Virus record (IMG/VR): IMGVR_UViG_3300042520_002820
Coordinates: 1 to 21,550 of that record
Length of the DNA stretch: 21,550 nt
From: a virus
Strand: one strand, 5' to 3'
Made by a program: the position numbers and the translations under genes. The notes under the pieces were generated by a model. It was not told the DNA's origin. It made no database searches and worked only from the letters and a program-made list of their open reading frames with translations. Positions 439 through 19,246 of the stretch are shown here, in pieces. Positions within the stretch are counted from its first letter, which is position 1. Each line of letters opens with the position of its first letter.

Positions 439-981
439 ATGACCGCAGCATTTCTTGAGACTTCCGTTCTGGATGAACTCACAAAAGAACTCCAAAGTGG
501 CAAGTACTTGAATCTCAGCAAAATTAACGGAGACAAAAAAGTCCGTTTCTTTGGTACTGGGATTAAAGGATGGGAAGCCTGGACCGAAGACAACAAGCCT
601 CTCCGTTGGGAATCCAAGCCTAGTGAGTATCCCGCAAACATCAAAAGAGCTGAAGATGGAACCGTAAACATCAAACGCTTTATTGCGGCTGCTATCTGGG
701 ACTATGACGATGAGATGTTCAAGATTATTAACTTGAACAAGACAACTGTACTCAAAAAGTTTTTGACTTACTGCAAGGCTGAAGAGTATGGCAATCCCAC
801 TACATACGACATTCGCATTTCACGTACCGGAACAGGTATGGATACCGAATACGAGTTGCTAGCCCTGCCACCCAAAGCAGTGACCAAAGAAATCGCAACT
901 GCATACGCTGCAGAATGTGCCAACTGGAATCTTGCCGCCATGTTTGATGGTGATGATCCCTTTGGCGAATCCGCTGTTTAG
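439..981 (+). CDS. putative single-stranded DNA-binding protein
   Basis: The 180-residue protein has a basic and aromatic N-terminal half (KxxxLSKINGDKKVRFFG, then GWEAWTEDNKPLRWE, about residues 20-60) and ends in an acidic tail, MFDGDDPFGESAV, of the kind that recruits partners in SSB-like proteins. This fits a phage SSB coating single-stranded DNA during replication or recombination. It has its own promoter (352-380), a structured leader, and a hairpin with a T-rich tail just after the stop. The neighbouring exonuclease and dNMP kinase support a replication role. The assignment rests on composition, tail and context rather than a firm family match; a hypothetical early protein is the alternative. 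Confidence 0.55.
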   Translation: MTAAFLETSVLDELTKELQSGKYLNLSKINGDKKVRFFGTGIKGWEAWTEDNKPLRWESKPSEYPANIKRAEDGTVNIKRFIAAAIWDYDDEMFKIINLNKTTVLKKFLTYCKAEEYGNPTTYDIRISRTGTGMDTEYELLALPPKAVTKEIATAYAAECANWNLAAMFDGDDPFGESAV

Positions 982-996
982 TTCAACATCATACAT

Positions 997-1023
997 GGGC
1001 CCCCTTGGGCCCTTCTCTTTTTC
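997..1023 (+). terminator. stem-loop with T-rich tail
   Basis: GGGCCC (997-1002), loop CCTT, GGGCCC (1007-1012), then TTCTCTTTTTC. This has the form of an intrinsic terminator after the putative ssb, but it is also only 6 bases before the ATG at 1029, so it may act as a leader element. A very similar hairpin (GAGCCC-TCTT-GGGCTC-TTCTTT) is at 15494. Confidence 0.6.
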
Positions 1024-1028
1024 ATCTC

Positions 1029-1277
1029 ATGGGAACTGAAGCTCCTCTAATCCGCATTTATGTACGCAACATTGAGCTACTCGGCTTCAAACGCGGTTGG
1101 GATTCCACTCGTCTGGCTTCAGAGTTAGGGATCTCCACTAATACTTTTCGGCGTCTCCGCTCCGGAGTGAATCGCTACATCTGTACTGATCTATTTCGTA
1201 CAGTGCTGAAACTGTTTGACTGCAGCCCTAACGACCTACTGCTCCCTCAAGATGGCGTTGATTACACCTTTGACTGA
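1029..1277 (+). CDS. small XRE-like helix-turn-helix protein
   Basis: The 82-residue protein contains STRLASELGISTNTFRRLRSG (about residues 27-47), a helix-turn-helix of the Cro/CI (XRE) kind, followed by helices ending in CSPNDLLLP, where XRE proteins often have a conserved segment. It is likely a small DNA-binding regulator. I chose the ATG at 1029 over one at 1005 because the latter lies inside the preceding hairpin. The start follows a G-free stretch, TTTTTCATCTC, with no Shine-Dalgarno. The 3' end overlaps the next gene by 26 bases, suggesting coupled translation. Confidence 0.6.
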   Translation: MGTEAPLIRIYVRNIELLGFKRGWDSTRLASELGISTNTFRRLRSGVNRYICTDLFRTVLKLFDCSPNDLLLPQDGVDYTFD

Positions 1278-2007
1278 GCGTTTAATCGCGCTTCCCTGCT
1301 GGGAAATACCTAGCCACACAGCCCCTAACGGGGAGCGGACATACGAAGCCCCCACCGGCCTCGCTAGTTCAGTCACTACTATTTTGAGTGGCTCTCGTGA
1401 CAACACCGAGATCGAACTTTGGCGCGAGTCTGTAGGTACTGAAAAAGCCGATGCTATTCGTGATTTCGCCGCCGCGAGAGGCACAGATCACCACAGCCTA
1501 ATCGAGCAGTTTCTAAAAGATCACAAGGAGCCCGCCTTTGACTACGTCCAATCATCCTACTGGTCTTCTACTCGTCCTTTTCTCGATACGATTGATCATT
1601 GCCTTTTAAACGAAGGCACCATTTGGCATCCAGAGGGCTTCGCCGGTAAGCTAGATAATATCTCTTACCTGTCCCGTGCTGAGTTGCTGGTTTGGGATAA
1701 GAACCATGGAGCGGTCTCAGTAATCCAAGTAGCAGATGATTTACAACCCACTCTAATAGATTGGAAAACAGCAGATACCCCTCGTAATCCTAAAAAGATG
1801 TACGAGTATTCGCTGCAGGTCGCTGCTTATGTTGCTGGTGCTAATTACGTCTATGGCAATTTAGGTCTTGACATCCAGCGAGCCAAAATCGTGGTGGCAC
1901 TACCTGATCAACCGCCGCAGATAAAAATCATGGTAGGAGAGGAACTAGACCAATTATTCGAGCATTTTCTTGCCCGTTTACAGCGGTACACGTTCGCGAA
2001 GAAATGA
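1252..2007 (+). CDS. PD-(D/E)XK exonuclease (Cas4/RecB/MGME1-like)
   Basis: This is a 251-residue nuclease-like protein. Visible motifs are RGTDHH (76-81), GFAGKLD with Asp135, the core LIDWKT with Asp170 and Lys172, and YEYSLQVAAY (184-193), which gives the Gln/Tyr motif typical of the RecB/Cas4-type family. The order and spacing match the PD-(D/E)XK exonucleases encoded in many phage replication modules, which resect DNA ends in recombination or replication, or degrade host DNA. The start at 1252 avoids a longer overlap with the HTH gene. The stop overlaps the next start as ATGA. Confident on fold, less on exact role. Confidence 0.8.
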   Translation: MALITPLTERLIALPCWEIPSHTAPNGERTYEAPTGLASSVTTILSGSRDNTEIELWRESVGTEKADAIRDFAAARGTDHHSLIEQFLKDHKEPAFDYVQSSYWSSTRPFLDTIDHCLLNEGTIWHPEGFAGKLDNISYLSRAELLVWDKNHGAVSVIQVADDLQPTLIDWKTADTPRNPKKMYEYSLQVAAYVAGANYVYGNLGLDIQRAKIVVALPDQPPQIKIMVGEELDQLFEHFLARLQRYTFAKK

Positions 2008-2234
2008 TCCATCTACACTGGCTGAATCTATTCTGCTTGCTTTACGCAGCGTGTACGTTCGGGTATCTATTTTCTAAGTACCTAAACAATCGCAGATTGA
2101 AGCGCCTAGAAGCACGGATTCACTCAACTATCGAATCATCTACTACCCACCCTTCCTTCCTTATCGATCATGGCCCCTCACGTAATAGCCCTGTACTCTT
2201 CCGCTCCCGGCGCGGGAAAGTCCACAGTCGCTAG
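2004..2234 (+). CDS. small single-span membrane protein
   Basis: The 76-residue protein has a hydrophobic segment, roughly LNLFCLLYAACTFGYLF (residues 7-23), followed by a basic stretch (KYLNNRRLKRLEARI), which predicts one membrane helix with a cytoplasmic basic tail. Its ATG overlaps the exonuclease stop (ATGA), so it is probably translationally coupled. Its 3' part contains the motif TCATCTACTACC and overlaps the start of the dNMP kinase by 65 bases. No family recognised; the hydrophobic helix is the only functional clue. Confidence 0.5.
   Translation: MIHLHWLNLFCLLYAACTFGYLFSKYLNNRRLKRLEARIHSTIESSTTHPSFLIDHGPSRNSPVLFRSRRGKVHSR
2136..2147 (+). promoter_or_regulatory. TCATCTACTACC leader motif before dNMP kinase
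   Basis: Exact 12-base motif, 22 bases before the ATG at 2170. It extends to CTACTACCCACC and ends CGATCATG, closely matching the leader at 9589-9618. The interval is nearly free of G and has no Shine-Dalgarno. Confidence 0.5.
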
Positions 2235-2823
2235 ACACCTGTGTGACAAGCATTCATACACTAGGCTTTCTTTTGCGGACCCACTAAAGCGGGTAGTTGA
2301 AACCTTTCTTATTGAACTAGGTTACGACCACAGCTGCACTTATTCGCTACTGCGCGGCTCTCTCAAAGAAGTGAGACTCCCCGAGATCGGCACGACCCCC
2401 CGTCACCTGATGCGTACCCTTGGGACAGAGTGGGGGCGTCAATGTGTCCATCCTGATGTATGGGTCACCATTGCTGATAAGCACATCTCCCGCGCCTTGT
2501 CCGAGGGTCGAAATGTCGTCATTGATGATCTACGTTTCCCGAATGAATACGACCTATTGGTCAACAAGTACAACGCTACCATTTGGCACATAACCCGTGA
2601 TCTGCATACCAAGGACAGCACCCACGCTAGCGATGGAGCTTTAGAAAATAAATTCTTTACCGGATACATAAATAACAACAGCACTATTGTTGAGTTGCTC
2701 TCCTACGTCGATCTCCTCCTTCTTCCCCTCACCTGCTCAACAAAAAAGCCCCCTGAGCCTGACGATAGGAATAGGAATACTGTTGGCACAAGACTGTGCA
2801 TATCCGCATCATCACCAACGTAA
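2170..2823 (+). CDS. deoxynucleoside monophosphate kinase
   Basis: This kinase phosphorylates dNMPs to dNDPs to feed phage DNA synthesis. The 217-residue protein begins with the P-loop SSAPGAGKST (10-19), then FADPLKRVV (about 35-43), TPRHLMRTLGTEWGRQ and VIDDLRFPNEYDLL, the ordered set seen in T4 gp1-type phage dNMP kinases. The last 30 or so residues are low in conservation signals. The start overlaps the 3' end of the small membrane gene and follows the G-free TCATCTACTACC leader. The adjacent thyX supplies dTMP, so the two genes form a short nucleotide-supply unit. Confidence 0.82.
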   Translation: MAPHVIALYSSAPGAGKSTVARHLCDKHSYTRLSFADPLKRVVETFLIELGYDHSCTYSLLRGSLKEVRLPEIGTTPRHLMRTLGTEWGRQCVHPDVWVTIADKHISRALSEGRNVVIDDLRFPNEYDLLVNKYNATIWHITRDLHTKDSTHASDGALENKFFTGYINNNSTIVELLSYVDLLLLPLTCSTKKPPEPDDRNRNTVGTRLCISASSPT

Positions 2824-2835
2824 TGCACAACCGCC

Positions 2836-4587
2836 ATGACACTCCCTGATCCCCGTTTCCGCGTCGAACTAATTGCTCAGACACCTAATCCCCAGCGGGT
2901 AATCTGGGCGGCCATGCACCAGGACTACAGCGAGGGCTTCGTGGCCGCTGAGCGGGAGGCCTGGCCCGATGAGAAACGGTCCGGTGAGATATGTGTTAAG
3001 CGGCTACTTGCTGGAGATAGGGGCCATTATGGATGTTATGACTCTATTACAGAAGTCCTAACAAGTGACGGGTGGATGGCTTGGCCAGATGTAAAGGAGC
3101 AGTGGGACTCTGACTGCAGTCCCAATCTTCTAGCCGTTGACATCGCAAATGGAACCTGTCACTTCGAGGCACCCAAGGACATACAGGCCATCGAGTTACT
3201 CAATGGTGACCAACTCTATTCGCTAGGCAGCCAGTACCTAAACTTTGCGGTGACCCTTGACCATCGAATGGTCGTAAGCCATCGGCAGACTGGAGGTGCA
3301 TTCAGCTCATGGTATTTCAAGCGGGCTATAGATGTACTAGGGAAGCCTGTCCGCTACTTGCTGAATTCCTGCCTGGCGTCCGATTGCCGCAGCCTGCCTG
3401 ACGACATGCCAGTAGACGCAGATCCACTGACCGCGTTCAAGCTCGCTGGCTTTTTCTTTGGTGATGGCTTGAGATCTAACAACAAAAATCCCTTTTGCAT
3501 TCGTTTTCGCATTAGAAGACCACGCAAGATCGCCTACCTTTTAAGCCTTGGATTGCCAACAGAAGAGAAAAAGGGGGACCGATACACCATCGCCCGCCCA
3601 GACCTGGCACGGTGGATTCACAAACATTTTTCTAATAGTTCGGGCAAAGTTGTGCCTGTCTGGATCTTGACACTACCAGAGGAATTGGTCGCAGCCTTCT
3701 GGGATGGACTCAAGAACAGCGACGGAACCAGGATTGTAGAAAAGAGCTGGGCTTATGACAGCTCTGACAAGGAAAGCCTAGATCTTATTCAGGCGTTGGC
3801 CCACATAAATGGTTTTTCGGCAAATATGTCGTTAAATAATCTCAACGAAGGGCCCGAACATGCAAATCATAGGCCTTGCTGGAGGCTAACCATCGCCGAA
3901 AACTCTACGCGAAGAGTAGAGGCATGCTATGGGAGAAGTCCAGGGGTATCTGAGTCGCTAATTGACTATTCCGGTTTTGTTTATTGCGCCACGGTTTCCA
4001 CTGGTGCGCTAATGGTTCGCAGGAAAAACAAAGTATTTGTATCCGGCAACTGCCTAGAGCATCCGGCCATCACACTAAACGTAGGCTGGTTTCCTCACTC
4101 TGTAATGCAACAGGCTAGGACTCACAGAGTAGGAGTAAGTTTTGATGTCCAGAGCATGAGATATTCGGGACAACGAATCTGTGATGCTGCAGAGGGAAGG
4201 CTAAAGATTGAAGATGTATTTTATCTTAGGCCTGTTGGTGACTATGCAGATCGTCAAGGCAAAAAGTACACCTACACGGCTGATCAGCGAGCAATCGACT
4301 TAAACACTTGCCACCTTGCCGCTGAGCGTTATTGGGATCTGATGGCGGCAGGTTTTGCAGAGGAGCACGCTCGCGGCATCCTGCCCTTTGACTATCGCCA
4401 GCACTTCGTGGTCAGCTTCAGCTTGCGGGCCTTCCTCCACTTCCTTGACCTGCGGGCGAAGCTCGATGCCCAGGAGGAAATCCGCGCCCTGTGTGATCTG
4501 ATGTGGCCCCACCTAGAGGCCTGGGTCCCCGAGATCGCCGGCTGGTACGCCAAGACCCGCCTGCACAAAGCCCGCCTCGCCCCCTGA
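2836..4587 (+). CDS. thyX: flavin-dependent thymidylate synthase ThyX with intein
   Basis: After splicing this would make dTMP from dUMP using FAD and methylenetetrahydrofolate. The 583-residue precursor has a 66-residue N-extein ending RGHYG, an intein (67-405) and a 178-residue C-extein starting CLEHPAITLNVGWFPHSV. The C-extein carries RTHRVGVSFDVQS and MRYSG, the ThyX motif in its cyanobacterial form. The joined exteins are 244 residues, a normal ThyX length. The insertion falls inside the conserved HYGCLEHP segment, so splicing should be needed for activity. It follows the dNMP kinase by 12 bases. The last codons, stop and next bases (4573-4592) are repeated at 5447-5466. Confidence 0.9.
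   Translation: MTLPDPRFRVELIAQTPNPQRVIWAAMHQDYSEGFVAAEREAWPDEKRSGEICVKRLLAGDRGHYGCYDSITEVLTSDGWMAWPDVKEQWDSDCSPNLLAVDIANGTCHFEAPKDIQAIELLNGDQLYSLGSQYLNFAVTLDHRMVVSHRQTGGAFSSWYFKRAIDVLGKPVRYLLNSCLASDCRSLPDDMPVDADPLTAFKLAGFFFGDGLRSNNKNPFCIRFRIRRPRKIAYLLSLGLPTEEKKGDRYTIARPDLARWIHKHFSNSSGKVVPVWILTLPEELVAAFWDGLKNSDGTRIVEKSWAYDSSDKESLDLIQALAHINGFSANMSLNNLNEGPEHANHRPCWRLTIAENSTRRVEACYGRSPGVSESLIDYSGFVYCATVSTGALMVRRKNKVFVSGNCLEHPAITLNVGWFPHSVMQQARTHRVGVSFDVQSMRYSGQRICDAAEGRLKIEDVFYLRPVGDYADRQGKKYTYTADQRAIDLNTCHLAAERYWDLMAAGFAEEHARGILPFDYRQHFVVSFSLRAFLHFLDLRAKLDAQEEIRALCDLMWPHLEAWVPEIAGWYAKTRLHKARLAP
3034..4050 (+). mobile_element. LAGLIDADG intein in thyX
   Basis: This 339-residue in-frame insert begins with Cys (CYDSITEVLTSDGW, block A) and has VTLDHRMVV (block B, with TxxH). 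It has two LAGLIDADG-like motifs, KLAGFFFGDG and AAFWDGLKNSDG, each keeping an acidic residue, then a block F-like FVYCATVSTGALMV and block G VFVSGN before Cys+1. It should excise itself at protein level and may encode a homing endonuclease. The residue before the final Asn is Gly rather than the usual His, a known but less common variant that can slow Asn cyclisation. Both splice-junction nucleophiles, Cys1 and Cys+1, are present. Confidence 0.9.
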
Positions 4588-4592
4588 AGACA
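4573..4592 (+). repeat. 20-bp direct repeat, copy 1 (end of thyX)
   Basis: CGCCTCGCCCCCTGAAGACA covers the last thyX codons, its stop and six further bases. It is identical to 5447-5466. The two copies bracket an 854-base unit holding a promoter, a gene and a terminator. Confidence 0.95.
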
Positions 4593-4673
4593 TCATGCGA
4601 CGGGCTTGCGGTCTTGCTGAGTTGCTGCCTTGCTGAGGAAAGCAGTTCCAGTAGCGCCTCATTCAGGAACAGG

Positions 4674-4703
4674 TTGACAAAACCTATCAACCCTGTCTAG
4701 GAT
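4674..4703 (+). promoter_or_regulatory. sigma-70-type promoter
   Basis: TTGACA (4674-4679), an 18-base spacer, TAGGAT (4698-4703). AGGTT-GACAA-AACCT places the -35 box in an inverted repeat. Downstream sequence GTCTAGGATGCAATCGAAC resembles GTCTAAGATCGAAGCAAC at the 9445 promoter. Confidence 0.7.
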
Positions 4704-4734
4704 GCAATCGAACAGCAGGCCCCGGCCAGCTGAC

Positions 4735-4759
4735 CACACACACACACACACACACACAC
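4735..4759. repeat. (CA)n dinucleotide repeat
   Basis: Twenty-five bases of alternating CA lie in the leader between the 4674 promoter and the ATG at 4783. It could vary in length by slippage and so alter leader length. It is unusual in a compact phage genome. Confidence 0.95.
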
Positions 4760-4782
4760 CAAATAAAAGTCGCCCAGCCCTT

Positions 4783-5436
4783 ATGGTCACAACGCAACTG
4801 TCTACTGTTGACACCTGGAGAAGTGACATCAAGCACGCAACGCTTCTACATAATGAAGCCCGCAAAAAAGCTGAACCTTATGCAATATGGGACAGGGAAA
4901 GCAGGGTTGTTTTCGTCAGCGAAGTCCAAGGTATGTCCATGGAGCAACTGCGAACGTTGGCTGATGACTTGAGAATTGTAATCACAAGTCTAAATGACCG
5001 AATAAGCACGGAATACGTACTCCTTGCTGAGTGCCCGCAAGATAAGCCAATGGTGGCCCGCGACATCAGAAAAAAGATTAGAAGGCTAATTGCAAGAAAA
5101 GAGCAATGCAAATATGTCATGTTAGAAGCGACTAGGTATAAAAAGCACCTCAATAGAGAGGCGAACAAGCCGAAAGAAAAGCCCATGAAGCTTAATAACA
5201 GAGACGAAAACAAGCATGTAACCTTTTTGCGTGTACAAAAAAAGATGGAGTATTTAAGTCGAAAAAGGCAATTTGAAATCTTGGCTGACAGATTTGGTGC
5301 AGATACTCTCGCCGATCTTGAAAAGGAAGCTGTAACGGCTTCTATCGAACCTTTTACGCAATGGGCAAGAGAAAATGACGTAGAGCAAAACATCGTTGAT
5401 CACATCATCTTCCATGCGCTGAGAAAGGGGGCCTGA
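4783..5436 (+). CDS. hypothetical protein, 217 aa, in a bracketed cassette
   Basis: I do not recognise this protein. It is highly charged, Lys- and Arg-rich and probably mostly helical, with basic runs such as RKKIRRLIARK and KHLNREANKPKEK around the middle. No membrane segment or catalytic motif is obvious. I chose the ATG at 4783; an upstream ATG at 4702 would translate the CA repeat as His-Thr and overlaps the -10 box. Base composition is more AT-rich than the thyX 3' end and the gene at 5467. It has its own promoter and terminator and sits between 20-bp repeats, so it looks like an acquired moron-type gene. A nucleic-acid-binding role is possible from charge alone. Confidence 0.65.
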   Translation: MVTTQLSTVDTWRSDIKHATLLHNEARKKAEPYAIWDRESRVVFVSEVQGMSMEQLRTLADDLRIVITSLNDRISTEYVLLAECPQDKPMVARDIRKKIRRLIARKEQCKYVMLEATRYKKHLNREANKPKEKPMKLNNRDENKHVTFLRVQKKMEYLSRKRQFEILADRFGADTLADLEKEAVTASIEPFTQWARENDVEQNIVDHIIFHALRKGA

Positions 5437-5445
5437 CCCCCTTTT
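5424..5445 (+). terminator. intrinsic terminator
   Basis: AAAGGGGG (5424-5431), loop CCTGA, CCCCCTTT (5437-5444), then one more T. The 8-bp stem overlaps the end of the 4783 gene, whose stop codon lies in the loop. Confidence 0.75.
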
Positions 5446-5446
5446 A

Positions 5447-5466
5447 CGCCTCGCCCCCTGAAGACA
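5447..5466 (+). repeat. 20-bp direct repeat, copy 2
   Basis: Identical to 4573-4592 but non-coding here. It lies directly against the ATG at 5467. In copy 1 the same sequence is the thyX end followed by TCATG, so thyX and the 5467 gene may once have been adjacent. Confidence 0.95.
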
Positions 5467-5700
5467 ATGAGAATCATTATCACCAGCGCTTTCCCCCTCG
5501 ACCCCAGCTCCCCCGACCTTTGCAACTGGGAATTACGCGACGGCCCCGAGGAGATCTTCACCGAGACCGGAACCACTCTCAGCCTCTACTCCGCTTTCGC
5601 CGAGATCTGCCAGGCCCGGGCCCGACTCGCAGTACACATCACAGGAGAACCGGATCCCGAGGAGCTGCTCCCTGCACCTGAGTTCTCCCCGGATCACTGA
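5467..5700 (+). CDS. small acidic hypothetical protein, 77 aa
   Basis: No family recognised. The protein is acidic with a Pro/Glu-rich tail (EPDPEELLPAPEFSPDH). The N-terminal MRIIITSAFPLD suggests a first beta strand. The codons favour C and G in the third position, like the end of thyX and unlike the AT-richer gene between them, which supports the idea that it was originally next to thyX. The start is the ATG directly after the 20-bp repeat. A gap of 127 bases follows before the sigma gene, holding only a hairpin and a short ATG-initiated frame of 11 codons. Confidence 0.5.
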   Translation: MRIIITSAFPLDPSSPDLCNWELRDGPEEIFTETGTTLSLYSAFAEICQARARLAVHITGEPDPEELLPAPEFSPDH

Positions 5701-5795
5701 CTGTCCCCAGACCATCCGCCCCCTCGCACACGTCTCCCCCTGCAGCAGCACATCCCACCCCTCTGCCATGACCACTGACCCAGCATGCTTTACAG

Positions 5796-5820
5796 TTGCC
5801 TAACCAAATCCGGTTGGCAA
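5796..5820 (+). promoter_or_regulatory. hairpin or operator before the sigma gene
   Basis: TTGCC-T-AACC, loop AAATCC, GGTT-GGCAA: nine base pairs with one bulged T, ending 7 bases before the ATG at 5828. It could hide the ribosome landing site or act as an operator. No good -10/-35 pair is visible here. Confidence 0.45.
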
Positions 5821-5827
5821 GCTATGT

Positions 5828-6715
5828 ATGACCCGATCTGAAATACAGTCCTATTTAGACGATCTAGGTCGTTACCCTATTCTCACCAAGGAGACGCAAC
5901 TTCGTCATTGCTACAACATCCACGCTTGGGTGAACCACCCTGACGGAAAAGAGAACTGTCCTAAGAAGATACGACGCTTGGGCAGACGTTCCATGGAAGC
6001 TATGGTTCAAACTAATCTGCGCTTGGTCCTATCTGTTGCTAAGAACTACCAAAATCGCGGTTTAGACCTTGCAGATTTAATCCAAGAAGGGAACCTAGGC
6101 CTCATACGCGGTCTCGAACTTTTCGATCCAACTCGCGGCTACACAGTCAGCACTTACAGCTACTGGTGGATCCGTCAATCCATCACCCGTGCATTGCATG
6201 TCCGTGGTCGTGCCATACGTCTCCCTATCAATATTCACGAAGTCATAAGTCAAGCCGAGAAAGCCACCGCTGAATTCACCGCAGAGCACAGACGCAGCCC
6301 CACTATCGCTGAACTTGGCGCCGTTATCAATGAATCCGAAGAACGCATTAACTTCTGTTTTGAGATCGCAGGCATGACCAAGTGTCTATCCTACGACCTT
6401 GCCTGCAGTCCTGATGGCAGTAACTTTATAGAGTTTATCCCCTCCTCTGAAGGCAACGACTACGAAACCGATTACCCCGAAGACTTCTGCGAGCGTGCTG
6501 CACCCGACGCTGTGTCGTATGCCTACTCTAAACTTACTAATAACGAACGGCAGGTACTCGCCAATAACTTCTTCGACGAAATCACCATCAAAGACATCGC
6601 CGCACAACGTTCGGTATCTCGTTCCCGAATTGGTCAAGTCCGCAAGGACGCTCTTAATAAGATGCGAACGCACATCGAGCGCTACAACCTCGGTCTGATT
6701 GACAACCCGACATAA
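5828..6715 (+). CDS. sigma-70 family sigma factor (cyanobacterial group 2-like)
   Basis: This sigma factor should redirect host RNA polymerase to phage promoters. The 295-residue protein has region 1.2 (SYLDDLGRYPILT, about 8-20) and region 2 with NLRLVLSVAKNYQNRGLDLADLIQEGNLGL (63-92). Next come FDPTRGYTVSTYSYWWIRQSITRAL (99-123, regions 2.3-2.4) and a region 3 containing IRLPINIHE. Region 4 has LTNNERQVL and the helix-turn-helix IKDIAAQRSVSRSRIGQVRKDALNKMR (about 236-280). The pattern is close to cyanobacterial group 2 sigma factors, so a host-derived origin is likely. Region 1.1 is absent. The ATG at 5828 is used because the nearby ATG at 5824 meets a stop after five codons. Targets might be the repeated AGGTTGACA promoters, but this is inference. 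Confidence 0.92.
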   Translation: MTRSEIQSYLDDLGRYPILTKETQLRHCYNIHAWVNHPDGKENCPKKIRRLGRRSMEAMVQTNLRLVLSVAKNYQNRGLDLADLIQEGNLGLIRGLELFDPTRGYTVSTYSYWWIRQSITRALHVRGRAIRLPINIHEVISQAEKATAEFTAEHRRSPTIAELGAVINESEERINFCFEIAGMTKCLSYDLACSPDGSNFIEFIPSSEGNDYETDYPEDFCERAAPDAVSYAYSKLTNNERQVLANNFFDEITIKDIAAQRSVSRSRIGQVRKDALNKMRTHIERYNLGLIDNPT

Positions 6716-6747: not shown

Positions 6748-7125
6748 ATGCCTCAGCCTGCGACTCTGGAAGCGCTCACCCACACCTGTGACGAGATCTA
6801 CAAACGTGACGGCTACGTCCGCTGGGCTGAAGTCGCTTCCATCCATGGCATCTCCCGCCAGGCTGTCCACGCTCGCATCAAGGATGCCGTTGCGCAAGGC
6901 TCCCTCTCCCCCGAGGACGTTGCCCGCTGGCAATCCATGTCCTCCCGGGCCGCCCTCGCCCGCCACCGCCGCGACACCCAGGAACTGCACCGCCGCTTAC
7001 GCTTAGACATCCAGTTGACTGTGGATAACTACACCTGGCTTGATTCTCAGTGCGCCAGTCGCAGCTGCACCCGTACAGATATTGTGAATGGTCTGTTAAA
7101 CAAGGAAAGGCAGGCACTTGGTTGA
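6748..7125 (+). CDS. HTH plus ribbon-helix-helix DNA-binding protein
   Basis: The 125-residue protein seems to join two DNA-binding units. Residues 27-49 (AEVASIHGISRQAVHARIKDAV) form a helix-turn-helix. Residues 84-121 fit a ribbon-helix-helix pattern: a strand LDIQLTV, a helix YTWLDSQCASRS, a Thr-Arg-Thr-Asp turn, and a second helix IVNGLLNKERQAL. A basic linker (RAALARHRRDTQELHRRLR) joins them. It is probably a regulator, placed between the sigma gene and the clamp promoter. The symmetric AGGTTG-A-CAACCT at 7169-7181, just downstream, is a candidate operator, but nothing here proves binding. Confidence 0.65.
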   Translation: MPQPATLEALTHTCDEIYKRDGYVRWAEVASIHGISRQAVHARIKDAVAQGSLSPEDVARWQSMSSRAALARHRRDTQELHRRLRLDIQLTVDNYTWLDSQCASRSCTRTDIVNGLLNKERQALG

Positions 7126-7168
7126 ATCCATGATGCTGTGCATTGACAGCCTGTGACCAGCCCGAGAT

Positions 7169-7201
7169 AGGTTGACAACCTGCGCAGCTCATGTATAGAA
7201 T
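7169..7201 (+). promoter_or_regulatory. promoter with symmetric -35 before the clamp
   Basis: TTGACA (7172-7177), an 18-base spacer, TAGAAT (7196-7201). The -35 box is inside the perfect inverted repeat AGGTTG-A-CAACCT (7169-7181). Another TTGACA lies at 7143-7148. Downstream, CAACGGAGCC...GTAGAC resembles the leader at 9486-9510. The 164 bases from 7126 to 7289 hold no other feature that I can support. Confidence 0.7.
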
Positions 7202-7289
7202 GAAGGTTCACCAACAACGGAGCCTGCCCACGTAGACAGCCCCTGTCGCACCCTTTGTTGCACCCCGACCCTTCCACTTGTACACCCCC

Positions 7290-7373
7290 ATGAATACAAC
7301 TATTTCCAGTCCCGAGCAAACAGCAGACATGTCCGCTAATCAAGAGCAAAAAAACGTTTATCCTTCCTGCTGA
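7290..7373 (+). other. 27-codon frame, probable N-terminal part of the clamp
   Basis: ATG at 7290 opens a frame (MNTTISSPEQTADMSANQEQ...) that ends at TGA 7371-7373, five bases before the ATG at 7378. In the clamp frame the bases just upstream of 7378 translate as SKKTFILPADI, which looks like a normal clamp start strand but has no start codon after the stop at 7291. The two frames would join at the A7 run (7348-7354) if one A were absent or skipped. Confidence 0.5.
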
Positions 7374-7377
7374 CATT

Positions 7378-7956
7378 ATGTATATTGCCGCCCAGTTTGC
7401 TTCGCAAGACTCGTTTAAAGGCATTCTTACTGGCATTTCAATCAAGCCATGTGTTACCACAGCCGACAGCGCACTGACACCCATCGAAATTTGCTCAACA
7501 GACGGCCATCGAATGTTCCGCTGCAGAATACCAGTTGCCGAAAAGGAATTCCCTCTTGACAGACATATTGTGGTAAATGCTGCAGCATTCAAGAAAAAAG
7601 TAGCTAAGGCAAGTACTATTCATCTCTCCGCGTATAATGGCGTGGAAATGGCTAACTTCTTCGGTCACAAGGCTGAGCTTATAAGTAGCGTACCTTACAC
7701 AACGTTAGACGGGGACTACCCAAACTATAATCAGCTTTGGCCCGATACTTTTACGAACCAACCAGGCGAGTCTATTACATTCAATGCGGGCTATCTCGCG
7801 TCTTTCCTGAAAGAAGTTCAAGCCTTCTCAAGTAATTCTAACGTCACAATGAATTGTAATCTCGCAACAACACCTTTAACGTTCTCTGCTACACATCATC
7901 TCTATTCAGACGTAACTCTTGAGTACCTGTTAATGCCGGTTCAGATCCGCCGCTAA
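7378..7956 (+). CDS. DNA polymerase sliding clamp (DnaN-like), short
   Basis: This is likely the processivity clamp for phage DNA synthesis. The 192-residue frame shows clamp features: a first helix with AAQFASQDSFKGILTGI, then the strand pair IEICSTDGHRMFRCRIPV with the conserved TDGHR. The later segment YPNYNQLWP is followed by the C-terminal strand LEYLLMPVQIRR, similar to the bacterial clamp ending with MP. Bacterial clamps have about 370 residues in three domains; here only about two domains are seen. The true start is probably the ATG at 7290 with a frame change at an A7 run, giving about 221 residues. The gene is AT-richer than the methyltransferase that follows. Confidence 0.75.
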   Translation: MYIAAQFASQDSFKGILTGISIKPCVTTADSALTPIEICSTDGHRMFRCRIPVAEKEFPLDRHIVVNAAAFKKKVAKASTIHLSAYNGVEMANFFGHKAELISSVPYTTLDGDYPNYNQLWPDTFTNQPGESITFNAGYLASFLKEVQAFSSNSNVTMNCNLATTPLTFSATHHLYSDVTLEYLLMPVQIRR

Positions 7957-7958
7957 CC

Positions 7959-7975
7959 GATTCCCGAACCAGTCA
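7959..7975 (+). repeat. 17-bp direct repeat, copy 1
   Basis: GATTCCCGAACCAGTCA directly after the clamp stop, identical to 9848-9864. The pair brackets the methyltransferase, a promoter and a small gene. Confidence 0.95.
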
Positions 7976-7997
7976 CGTAGCGACCAGCATCCGCCCG

Positions 7998-9847: not shown

Positions 9848-9864
9848 GATTCCCGAACCAGTCA
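9848..9864 (+). repeat. 17-bp direct repeat, copy 2
   Basis: GATTCCCGAACCAGTCA, identical to 7959-7975. Its last A is the first base of the ATG at 9864. Confidence 0.95.
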
Positions 9865-10013
9865 TGCCCCAACCTTCCCACGTCTGCGGCTTCCTGCTGG
9901 CCCTTGCCTTTACCGGCTGGGCCCTCCATCAGGCTCGCATCACCCCGTCCACATTCCCCAGCCAAGAGCACCGCGCTGTCACCGCTGTCACCGCGCCCCC
10001 AGTCCACCAGTAA
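9864..10013 (+). CDS. small protein with N-terminal hydrophobic segment, 49 aa
   Basis: The frame from the ATG at 9864 encodes MPQPSHVCGFLLALAFTGWALHQ, then a polar tail rich in Pro, Thr and Val. The hydrophobic stretch (about residues 8-19) could be a membrane anchor or a signal peptide; there is no clear lipobox. The start coincides with the end of the 17-bp repeat. A longer frame opening at 9816 would overlap the previous gene. Short length and composition keep confidence low. Confidence 0.35.
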   Translation: MPQPSHVCGFLLALAFTGWALHQARITPSTFPSQEHRAVTAVTAPPVHQ

Positions 10014-16260: not shown

Positions 16261-16512
16261 CACTCTCTCACTCTCTCCCGCCATGTCAGAACTAACCACC
16301 GCAACGACATTCCAAGAGCGCATGTTCGAACGTGTGCGCGGCCGGGGGCGGAGGATTGCGATTCGGATGGCCGTTGCTGGTGGGGTGACGCAGGTTGTGA
16401 TGAGTTTGTGCCGAGCTGGCGCCTCTGCGAGCAGCCTGACAACCCTCGCTTTACTCACTGGTGTCCTTATTGGGCCCTACCCCTGCCAACCCCATTGGAG
16501 ATGAATCCATGA
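16249..16512 (+). CDS. Cys/Trp-rich small protein, 87 aa, frame uncertain
   Basis: This frame ends with DGRCWWGDAGCDEFVPSW, then FTHWCPYWALPLPTP, an aromatic and Cys pattern that reads like real protein. Its stop overlaps the next ATG as ATGA. Its N-terminus does not look coding. In another frame an ATG at 16283 opens MSELTTATTFQERMFERVR, a typical gene beginning, but that frame soon turns low quality. The simplest reading is a gene starting at 16283 whose frame shifts to this one near 16335-16360, by mutation or by fusion of two genes. I give low confidence to any exact form. Confidence 0.4.
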   Translation: MILNHSLTLSRHVRTNHRNDIPRAHVRTCARPGAEDCDSDGRCWWGDAGCDEFVPSWRLCEQPDNPRFTHWCPYWALPLPTPLEMNP

Positions 16513-16937
16513 CCCGCACGATCACACTTTCTGACGACCACTGGCAAACGATCAGTGACGCCCTGTCTGATTTTTGCGACGAAGGGCCGCCAGACTCACC
16601 ATGGAAAAGCCCCGGTTTAGAGGCTGCTCAAGCGGCACTGGACGCAGCTTTAGCCCAGCCCGAGTGGCCTGTTCAAGATGACAAGACCCTCAAGTCGATC
16701 AGAGAGACTACGCCACGCTATCGAATGTCTGTCATTGTTAGGACAAATGACAGTGCTATTGATACCAGGATGATTGTCATTGGGAAAGCACTCGATCTGA
16801 GTAAGGAGATTCTTGAATCCGTTTCACTCCCGGAACGACTACCACCCTTTCTCTACTCTCCCGCAACCATTGCGGAATGTGCTGGAGGCCCCTGTCAGCA
16901 AGGCCCCGAATATTGCGATTGTGGCGCCATCCCCTGA
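16509..16937 (+). CDS. hypothetical protein, 142 aa
   Basis: No family recognised. The N-terminal half is helical and acidic (LSDDHWQTISDALSDFCDEG, then LEAAQAALDAALAQPEW). The second half contains a strand-like MSVIVRTND and RMIVIGKAL, and the C-terminus has four clustered Cys (CAGGPCQQGPEYCDC), a possible metal site. The ATG at 16509 overlaps the previous stop as ATGA, which decides the start over the upstream in-frame ATG. The stop is followed at once by 17 C. Confidence 0.55.
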   Translation: MTRTITLSDDHWQTISDALSDFCDEGPPDSPWKSPGLEAAQAALDAALAQPEWPVQDDKTLKSIRETTPRYRMSVIVRTNDSAIDTRMIVIGKALDLSKEILESVSLPERLPPFLYSPATIAECAGGPCQQGPEYCDCGAIP

Positions 16938-16954
16938 CCCCCCCCCCCCCCCCC
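16938..16954. repeat. poly-C tract (17 C)
   Basis: Seventeen consecutive C directly after the stop of the 16509 gene and 60 bases before the -35 region of the protease promoter. Long homopolymers are rare in phage genomes and are slippage-prone. Confidence 0.95.
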
Positions 16955-17080: not shown

Positions 17081-19246
17081 GTGGACAGCGATCAGCTCTT
17101 CACGAGCAACGTCACCATCAATGACCCCGGCTACACCAATGGCCACTTATGGGGCATGGGCCCTGGCTTTGGCTCCAATGCCGAAGCAGCATGGAAAACA
17201 GGCCACACGGGATCGAGGGATGTTTATGTGGGAATTATTGACACAGGGGTGGATTTTAATCACCCTGATCTGGCTGCGAATATCTGGGTCAACCCCCACG
17301 AGACCGTAGACGGAATTGATAATGACGGGAACGGCTACATTGATGATATTCGCGGCTGGGATTTCGATAGAAACGACAATACGGTTTTTGACGGCCCTCA
17401 AGATGGCCACGGCACCCATGTAGCCGGAATTATCGGGGCTGTTGGTGGAAATAGCCAAGGTGTGGTTGGAGTAGCCCCCAACCTGCGAATTATCCCCATC
17501 AAATTCATAGGGAATCGCGGCGGAACGACCATCGGGGTCCAGAGGGCCCTGGATTACTTGACGGATCTGAAACGGCGTCATGGCCTCAACATCGTGGCCA
17601 GCAACCATTCCTGGTCAGGTGGAACAGGCCCTTGGATGGAGGACGCCATCCTTCGAGCCGCGCAGGCAGACATTTTGTTCGTCGCGGCTGCTGGCAATTC
17701 CGGTCGGGACAGTGATGTTCATGTCTCCTACCCATCGGGGATCAGCACCTTGCAGAGAGCCGGTTACGAAGCCGTCATCTCTGTAACAGGATTGGATGTC
17801 AACGGAAATCAACAATACAATTATGGAAGGACAACGGTAGATCTAGCCGCACCCTCGTCTGGCATTTACTCCACCCTGCCAGGAAACAATTACTCAACCC
17901 TGAGCGGAACCTCTATGGCGGCGCCGCATGTTACGGGGGCGATTGCACTTTATGCCGCAAAGTATCCCAACGCTAGTGCTCAACAGATTCGAGAAGCGTT
18001 GCTAGCGAGTACCACTCCAACAGCCTCGTTGGCGGGCAAAACAGTGACAGGTGGTCGGCTGAACGTGGCGGCATTCCTGAACACTCCACCACCAACTGGC
18101 GCTTTTCCAGCTCCAACACCGGCCCCGGTACCTCCAACACCAGCTCCAGCACCAACCCCACCCCCTGCTCCAACTCCAGCTCCAGCACCTCCAACACCAG
18201 CCCCTCAACCGGGAGCGCTGGTGCCGGTAGAGGTCACGGCAATCGACCTGGACGGTTTTAGTGACTCTCCCAGATTCGAGCAGGTGGTCAACGCCTTTGA
18301 TAGCAATGCAAACACCAAATACCTCAACATCGGAGGTAGCAACTCAGGCATTCAGCTGCGCTTCGCGACCCCAACCCGTTTGGGCTCGTTCTCTCTCACC
18401 ACGGCCAATGACATGCCCGGCAGGGATCCGGCCTCTTACCAGGTCTATGGCCTCAACGGCAGCTCCTGGCAGCTCCTCACCTCAGGTGCTTTGCAACTAC
18501 CAGCGGCGCGTCTCACTGCTGGCAACAGCATTGCATTGCCAGAGCTGCCAATTCTGTCGAGCTACCGGGTGATTTTCCCGACGCTCAGAGCAGAAAACCA
18601 GATGATGCAGATTTCTGAATTGAAGCTCTATGGCCACGGCAGCACGCCAGCTCCCACTCCAGCGCCACCAGCCCCCACTCCTACTCCTGCACCACCGGCA
18701 CCACCGGCACCAGCGCCGCCAACACCAACACCAGCACCAGCACCAGCACCAGGGCTTCTCCCCTCGCCCGTAGGGATTACAGCAATAGATCTTGATGGTT
18801 TTAGTGCCTCCCCAACCTTTGAGAAGGTAGGCAATGCGTTTGATAATGATCCCGTAACAAAGTATTTGAATATCGGAGGTAGCAACGCTGGTATTGAGTT
18901 CAGCTACTTGACAGCAACCCACATCACTGGGTTCAGGGTAACCACAGCCAATGACATGCCAGGCAGGGATCCTGCCTCTTACCAGATCTATGGGCAGCGA
19001 AATGGCGGATGGGATCTTCTCATCTCGGGCGGCCTTCAGCTGCCCACTGCACGACTGACAGAAGCTCCAGCCGTCTCCCTAGATGGTCTGTCCGCACTTA
19101 CCACATACCGCCTGGTGTTTCCAACCCTCAGGACAGACGGCAACATGATGCAAATAGCTGACCTGAAGCTCTACGGCACCCAGGCCAGCCCCACCACAAT
19201 GTCCGATCCAGCCACAAGCCCCCCGAGTACGGACTGGCTTGTATAG
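17081..19246 (+). CDS. subtilisin-like (S8) protease with two discoidin-like domains
   Basis: The 721-residue protein opens directly with the protease domain. The catalytic triad is Asp54 (GIIDTGVD), His110 (DGHGTHVAG) and Ser278 (GTSMAAPH), with oxyanion Asn206 (AAGNSG). A Ca-binding-like DNDGNGYIDD lies at 80-89. Two Pro/Ala/Thr linkers (about 335-378 and 520-560) separate two similar domains (about 380-518 and 563-699) with NAFD, TKYLNIGGSN, TTANDMPGRDPASYQ and MMQI-LKLYG motifs, a galactose-binding or F5/8C-like fold. No signal peptide or propeptide is visible, so it would act after lysis or inside a virion. The start is GTG. Promoter copies flank it, so it is a likely acquired cassette, probably of cyanobacterial origin. 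Confidence 0.88.
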   Translation: MDSDQLFTSNVTINDPGYTNGHLWGMGPGFGSNAEAAWKTGHTGSRDVYVGIIDTGVDFNHPDLAANIWVNPHETVDGIDNDGNGYIDDIRGWDFDRNDNTVFDGPQDGHGTHVAGIIGAVGGNSQGVVGVAPNLRIIPIKFIGNRGGTTIGVQRALDYLTDLKRRHGLNIVASNHSWSGGTGPWMEDAILRAAQADILFVAAAGNSGRDSDVHVSYPSGISTLQRAGYEAVISVTGLDVNGNQQYNYGRTTVDLAAPSSGIYSTLPGNNYSTLSGTSMAAPHVTGAIALYAAKYPNASAQQIREALLASTTPTASLAGKTVTGGRLNVAAFLNTPPPTGAFPAPTPAPVPPTPAPAPTPPPAPTPAPAPPTPAPQPGALVPVEVTAIDLDGFSDSPRFEQVVNAFDSNANTKYLNIGGSNSGIQLRFATPTRLGSFSLTTANDMPGRDPASYQVYGLNGSSWQLLTSGALQLPAARLTAGNSIALPELPILSSYRVIFPTLRAENQMMQISELKLYGHGSTPAPTPAPPAPTPTPAPPAPPAPAPPTPTPAPAPAPGLLPSPVGITAIDLDGFSASPTFEKVGNAFDNDPVTKYLNIGGSNAGIEFSYLTATHITGFRVTTANDMPGRDPASYQIYGQRNGGWDLLISGGLQLPTARLTEAPAVSLDGLSALTTYRLVFPTLRTDGNMMQIADLKLYGTQASPTTMSDPATSPPSTDWLV

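Follow-up and report, generated by a model that had tools for sequence, protein, structure and literature searches.

A probable one-base frame break at an A7 run in an accessory, two-domain sliding clamp gene of a freshwater phage

The DNA analysed here, referred to as the window, is the whole of the linear IMG/VR record IMGVR_UViG_3300042520_002820, 21,550 bases from a freshwater phage, and the locus of interest lies on its plus strand. An open clamp frame occupies positions 7345-7956 (stop codon at 7954-7956), with what looks like a natural beginning; from base 7345 it translates as S-K-K-T-F-I-L-P-A-D-I-M. The frame is closed upstream by a TGA at 7291-7293 and is then open from 7294 to 7956. 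A script confirmed the statement of an earlier note on this DNA that no start codon (ATG, GTG or TTG) occurs in the clamp frame between 7294 and the ATG at 7378-7380, which specifies residue 12 counted from 7345, so that, unless the frame changes, no ATG, GTG or TTG leads into the strand and helix at the N-terminus of the first domain. Upstream lies a short ORF at 7290-7373, opening with ATG 7290 and ending after 27 amino acids at TGA 7371-7373, the first 20 codons of which are likely to represent an N-terminal extension of the clamp; a second ATG at 7329-7331 lies in the same frame and provides an alternative start, and TTG 7278 is also in frame with ATG 7290. A run of seven A's (7348-7354) marks a one-base offset between the extension frame and the clamp frame, in agreement with the earlier note, according to which the ATG 7290 frame would join the clamp frame if the run had one A fewer or were read +1 or -2. 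The heptamer A_AAA_AAC, a classic -1 frameshift site, is present in the ATG 7290 frame; a -1 shift at this site enters the third frame rather than the clamp frame, and it was rejected as a connection between the two.

The clamp gene and its leader form a cassette of reduced G+C content (7104-7948, plus strand) that is missing from the closest syntenic relative, L017. Upstream of the clamp, at 7172-7201 on the same strand, there is a sigma-70-like promoter match (TTGACA-18-TAGAAT, 11 of 12 consensus bases), which is suggestive only, as one site was found and shuffled sequences average 1.0. As this near-consensus match lies within the cassette, the clamp cassette may carry its own promoter.

Judged by sequence profiles and predicted fold, the gene is a two-domain sliding clamp of the DnaN type. 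The PHROG 3007 profile matches the clamp frame with an E-value of 3.8e-20, aligning residues 4-201 of the segment from 7345 with positions 2-186 of the 190-position profile, and PHROG 947 (processivity factor) matches with an E-value of 5.4e-13. The bacterial DnaN model TIGR00663 gives 6e-10, under the curated cut-off of the model, and PF02767 gives 0.028, likewise under its cut-off. A profile built from 39 rows, window included, matches bacterial beta clamps (6dj8, E 1e-7). AlphaFold, run on 35 sequences, modelled the clamp with a pLDDT of 90.9 and a pTM of 0.87, and the top Foldseek matches of the clamp in the PDB are beta clamps (2awa, E 3.8e-9, TM 0.70 on the query). In the BFVD, the Foldseek matches are phage proteins of about 200 residues, several of them annotated as DNA polymerase III beta (best E 3.4e-11), and the viral matches, annotated phage clamps among them, have TM scores of 0.73-0.77. 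Bacterial beta clamps thus share their fold and a sequence match to the central domain (TIGR00663, PF02767) with the window clamp, whereas DnaN chains have about 370 residues compared with about 200 here. The listed label of PHROG 3007, 'RusA-like Holliday junction resolvase', conflicts with this fold; both the structure and the DnaN profiles indicate a sliding clamp, and the label is probably a misannotation. The same profile, which matches the clamp from end to end, also finds matches in 9 of the 14 control genomes from bacteria and archaea. A literature search on two-domain clamps yielded nothing specific.

A named counterpart is the 'DNA polymerase III beta subunit' of Synechococcus phage S-SRP02 (QTP86370.1, MW822601.1; the phage literature includes PMC8790148), which shares about 39-43% identity across almost all of the clamp and has a similar two-domain length, with a long, Ser/Thr-containing N-terminal extension. 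Unlike the window clamp, it is encoded in an unbroken frame that starts 30 codons before the Leu-Pro pair (LP) of the F-I-L-P segment, and its gene neighbourhood, which includes an RNA polymerase gene, differs from that in the window.

To locate the expected N-terminus we compared the window with the best 80 of 99 IMG/VR loci and with S-SRP02, and examined start codons in 49 of the closer loci. This count covers L084-L131 and L001, with L054 and L110 treated as one because they are the same contig; the 32 more distant loci (L132-L163), most of which align only from about residue 43, fall outside it. One clamp (L100) runs off its contig, leaving 48 assessable relatives from the best 80 of 99 loci plus S-SRP02, and every one of these 48 has an unbroken frame with a start codon upstream of LP. 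The start is ATG in 47 and GTG in one, 3-39 codons before LP, and in this same set none of the 48 begins at the equivalent of Met 7378; five loci (L089, L097, L106, L107 and L114) have a Met one column before that position together with an ATG that precedes LP in frame. All 39 rows of alignment A3, which was prepared from 40 distinct complete relatives and includes the window, have the Pro of LP. In the AlphaFold model the residues F-I-L-P form a strand (residues 5-8) and helix alpha-1 spans residues 9-16, placing Met 7378 (residue 12) inside the helix, so that, on the predicted structure, a start at 7378 would cost the protein strand beta-1 and the beginning of alpha-1. The PHROG 3007 alignment, from profile position 2, reaches base 7354. 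The upstream starts, the invariant Pro and the predicted fold all bear out the suggestion of the earlier note that SKKTFILPADI is a natural clamp beginning, and its proposed comparison with related phage clamps, in which a homologue starting at the equivalent of Met 7378 would have spoken for that codon, produced no such homologue among the 48. ATG 7378 is accordingly an unlikely native start.

How long the ancestral extension was is less easily read from the relatives. The closest clamps among the best 80 of 99 loci are only about 43-45% identical and the window sits on a long branch; with no close relative, the ancestral start is not readable from a near neighbour. The placement of the window in the tree has a support of 69/31 with a branch of 1.08, and with so weak a placement the phylogeny does not settle the extension length of the ancestor. 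Extensions of only 3-5 residues precede LP in 10 of 38 tree relatives, and with such short-extension relatives a start inside 7339-7354 is conceivable. Neither peptide patterns nor a gapped DNA pattern placed across the A run found a near-identical copy of the clamp locus in IMG/VR; no near copy appeared in the phage search or in plasmids, and a search of genome contigs returned one distant locus, L245, which lies outside the set compared here.

The sequence immediately upstream of the A run carries signs of coding in the ATG 7290 frame. When 7293-7347 was scored with codon usage trained on the clamp, this frame scored +3.3, the clamp frame -7.2 and the third frame -3.9; 2000 shuffles of the segment gave a mean of -4.4 (sd 3.2), and 0.3% of them reached the score of the ATG 7290 frame. 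Its advantage was smaller with a broad gene set, when 4.3% of shuffles reached its score. The 20-residue peptide read from ATG 7290 resembles the Ser/Thr-rich extensions of the family, with a mean score of 10.9 against 20 long extensions, a hand-picked subset. This resemblance was equalled by 4 of 1000 base shuffles and by 60 of 1000 residue-order shuffles, the latter indicating that composition carries most of the signal. The G+C content is 0.62 for 7231-7290 but only 0.43, the level of the clamp gene, for 7291-7350. Codon usage, extension resemblance and G+C content together offer moderate support for a gene that formerly started at 7290, in preference to ATC 7339 or ACG 7354; the support is only moderate because about 19 codons underlie the codon and resemblance tests, which are also not independent of each other. 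By themselves, the presence of an upstream ATG and of the A run are unremarkable: shuffling the upstream region 5000 times produced an open frame led by an ATG 8-40 codons upstream in 39.7% of cases, and the window contains two A7/T7 runs against 1.24 expected under a first-order Markov model. What goes beyond chance is the need of the clamp fold for residues preceding Met 7378 and the coding character of 7293-7347 when read in the ATG 7290 frame.

A second contig, L164 (IMGVR_UViG_3300034166_001444), apparently represents a further part of the same phage; its alignment with window positions 826-6315 spans 5,490 columns free of mismatches and has a single 2-base gap in a CA repeat. An A7 run is among the five homopolymers of 6-7 bases at which L164 and the window agree. 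The match ends at window base 6315, before the clamp, and no copy of the clamp was found in the whole L164 record, which contains a family-A DNA polymerase gene. Comparison with L017 revealed no frame break in those window genes that have a full-length counterpart there. Both comparisons speak for a good consensus quality, without deciding the A run. The sole difference between L164 and the window in 5,490 bases is the CA dinucleotide repeat at window positions 4735-4759, which is one unit longer in the window; it sits at the 5' end of the ORF 4702-5436, the true start of which may be ATG 4783.

In L017, an HTH gene is directly followed by the gene encoding a DUF4942/methyltransferase-like protein, with about 94 bases in place of the 845 present in the window. 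No clamp was detected in the 59,981-base L017 record with three profiles (PHROG 3007, PHROG 947 and A3), of which the two PHROG profiles detect the clamp in the window and in two other phages, serving as controls, and A3 was run without a control. L017 does contain a family-A polymerase gene. Since the cassette is missing from the closest syntenic relative, a break in the gene would be tolerable, and on this genome comparison the clamp gene looks dispensable, although L017 and L164 are both fragments and absence of the clamp from them is not proof. The G+C content of the clamp gene is 0.447, compared with 0.545 for the window, and is among its lowest, with fewer than 0.5% of 600-base windows having a lower value, as expected for an imported accessory gene. 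The motif CCGAACCAGTCAC occurs shortly before the DUF4942/methyltransferase-like gene in both phages (window 7964-7976, L017 5966-5978) and again, with one mismatch, at window 9853-9865; allowing up to two mismatches, the window holds five matches against 0.52 expected.

The best reading of the locus is an ordinary one-base frame break, real or present in the consensus only, in an accessory two-domain clamp gene of the DnaN type. We give a probability of about 0.5 to a real and recent one-base change at the A7 run. According to this reading, the clamp coding sequence would first have begun at ATG 7290 (possibly at 7329), and a short Ser/Thr-rich N-terminal extension would have run directly into K-T-F-I-L-P, until a change of one base in length at or near 7348-7354 separated start and body into different frames. 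We infer that 7290 was the ancestral start, that the indel lies within the A run and that it exists in the DNA and not merely in the consensus, either as a recent replication-slippage mutation or as a low-level variant in the population. The outcome would be at most a start-less or N-terminally truncated clamp that is probably non-functional. The pattern is that of a recent indel, with intact relatives and a lone break located in a homopolymer; the clamp frame is otherwise wholly open, which means that the break is either very recent or not a loss of function. That openness, together with an N-terminal frame of coding character, is also what would be expected if nothing were broken and the A run were simply one base too long in the record, the gene continuing unbroken from ATG 7290. 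Only two A7/T7 runs occur in the window, moreover, and the break coincides with one of them, a classic place for length errors. Such a consensus or assembly error is a possible, though less probable, explanation, given that short-read consensus rarely errs at an A7, that L164 matches 5,490 bases with no mismatch and only the 2-base CA-repeat difference, its homopolymers (an A7 included) agreeing, and that no other frame break is apparent against L017. It is improbable that there is no frame break at all and that translation begins at a rare or mutated start, ATC 7339 or ACG 7354, to give a short N-terminus, the ATG 7290 frame being due to chance. Short extensions of 3-5 residues do occur in 10 of the 38 tree relatives, ACG 7354 is one base from ATG and coincides with the start of L116-L118, three codons before LP, and an upstream ATG frame is common by chance (39.7%). 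Nevertheless, the codon and composition evidence favours the other frame from 7290, the clamps closest to the window by tree path have long extensions (although the window is weakly placed), no clear ribosome-binding site was seen by eye before 7339 or 7354, and the relatives' starts are ATG in 47 of 48 and GTG in one, among the best 80 of 99 loci plus S-SRP02. Least probable is that Met 7378 is the true start, perhaps through reinitiation after the stop of the short ORF, yielding a clamp without its first strand: no other canonical start precedes it in the clamp frame, and it lies four bases from TGA 7371-7373, a distance that would permit coupled reinitiation, but such a protein would lack beta-1, the invariant Pro and the beginning of alpha-1, the PHROG 3007 match extends up to 7354, and none of the 48 relatives (best 80 of 99 plus S-SRP02) starts there, the five with a Met one column earlier all having an upstream ATG.

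Recoding, in which RNA polymerase slippage or +1 ribosomal slippage at CAA-AAA-AAC would join the frames in some products, is decidedly unlikely. Both frames are intact, and a +1 slip of the P-site Lys-tRNA from AAA to AAA would be perfectly paired and would land exactly in the clamp frame. Runs of A are known to be slippery in bacterial genes where, as in the window, two frames are offset at the run; the reported users have 9-11 A's, as described for tssM of Citrobacter (A11, PMC4256274) and dnaX of Thermus (A9, PMC1088944), whereas the window has only A7 and would need a one-base loss or a +1 shift that is not common to its relatives. None of the 48 assessable relatives from the best 80 of 99 loci plus S-SRP02 has a break at the position of the A run. 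The run also falls below the threshold for E. coli RNA polymerase, which according to PMC6260861 required eight A's or more to slip and, on the poly(A) runs examined, did not produce deletion-type slippage, although the host polymerase may differ and could allow leaky rescue. Runs of A9-A10 give little ribosome sliding (PMC4363877). No unusual RNA structure is predicted downstream: 7356-7435 folds worse than its shuffles (z +1.3), and 7356-7405 gives a z of +1.2, pseudoknots being outside the model. A replication clamp is, in addition, no obvious candidate for low-yield expression, and a search for phage sliding clamps combined with programmed frameshifting apparently found nothing on the subject in the literature text available. 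It is very unlikely that the phage toggles the clamp, or sets its dose, by reversible variation between six and seven A's or by low-level +1 decoding, that is, by phase variation or recoding. The earlier note had offered programmed slippage, a recent mutation and a sequencing error as possibilities; the first of these found no support, there being no relative with the break, no stimulatory structure and a run shorter than the E. coli threshold, and it is the least likely of the three, while recent mutation and consensus error both stand.

The frame break is chiefly of interest for clean annotation. An automatic gene-calling program would probably choose ATG 7378 and so report a clamp without its first strand, the likely true N-terminus being in the next frame. 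The locus also documents a small, accessory family of phage clamps with variable N-terminal extensions and a misleading PHROG label (RusA resolvase). Recoding or phase variation, if true, would be an unusual form of control for a replication factor.

Several other features of the window were recorded. The FAD-dependent thymidylate synthase ThyX (TIGR02170) is encoded at 2836-4587, and its N-terminal third is interrupted by an intein-like insertion a few hundred residues long. A subtilase (Peptidase_S8), unusual for a phage, is encoded at 17081-19246; it contains proline-rich linkers and matches F5/8 type C weakly, under the cut-off. Two poly-C runs, of 17 bases at 16938-16954 (about 130 bases before the subtilase ORF) and of 12 bases at 326-337, are candidates for length variation. 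Finally, a 96-base stretch at 16474-16569 recurs inverted, with 96% identity, in a distant region of the relative's genome (L244, 4237-4332), where a second, partial copy lies at 4533-4576.
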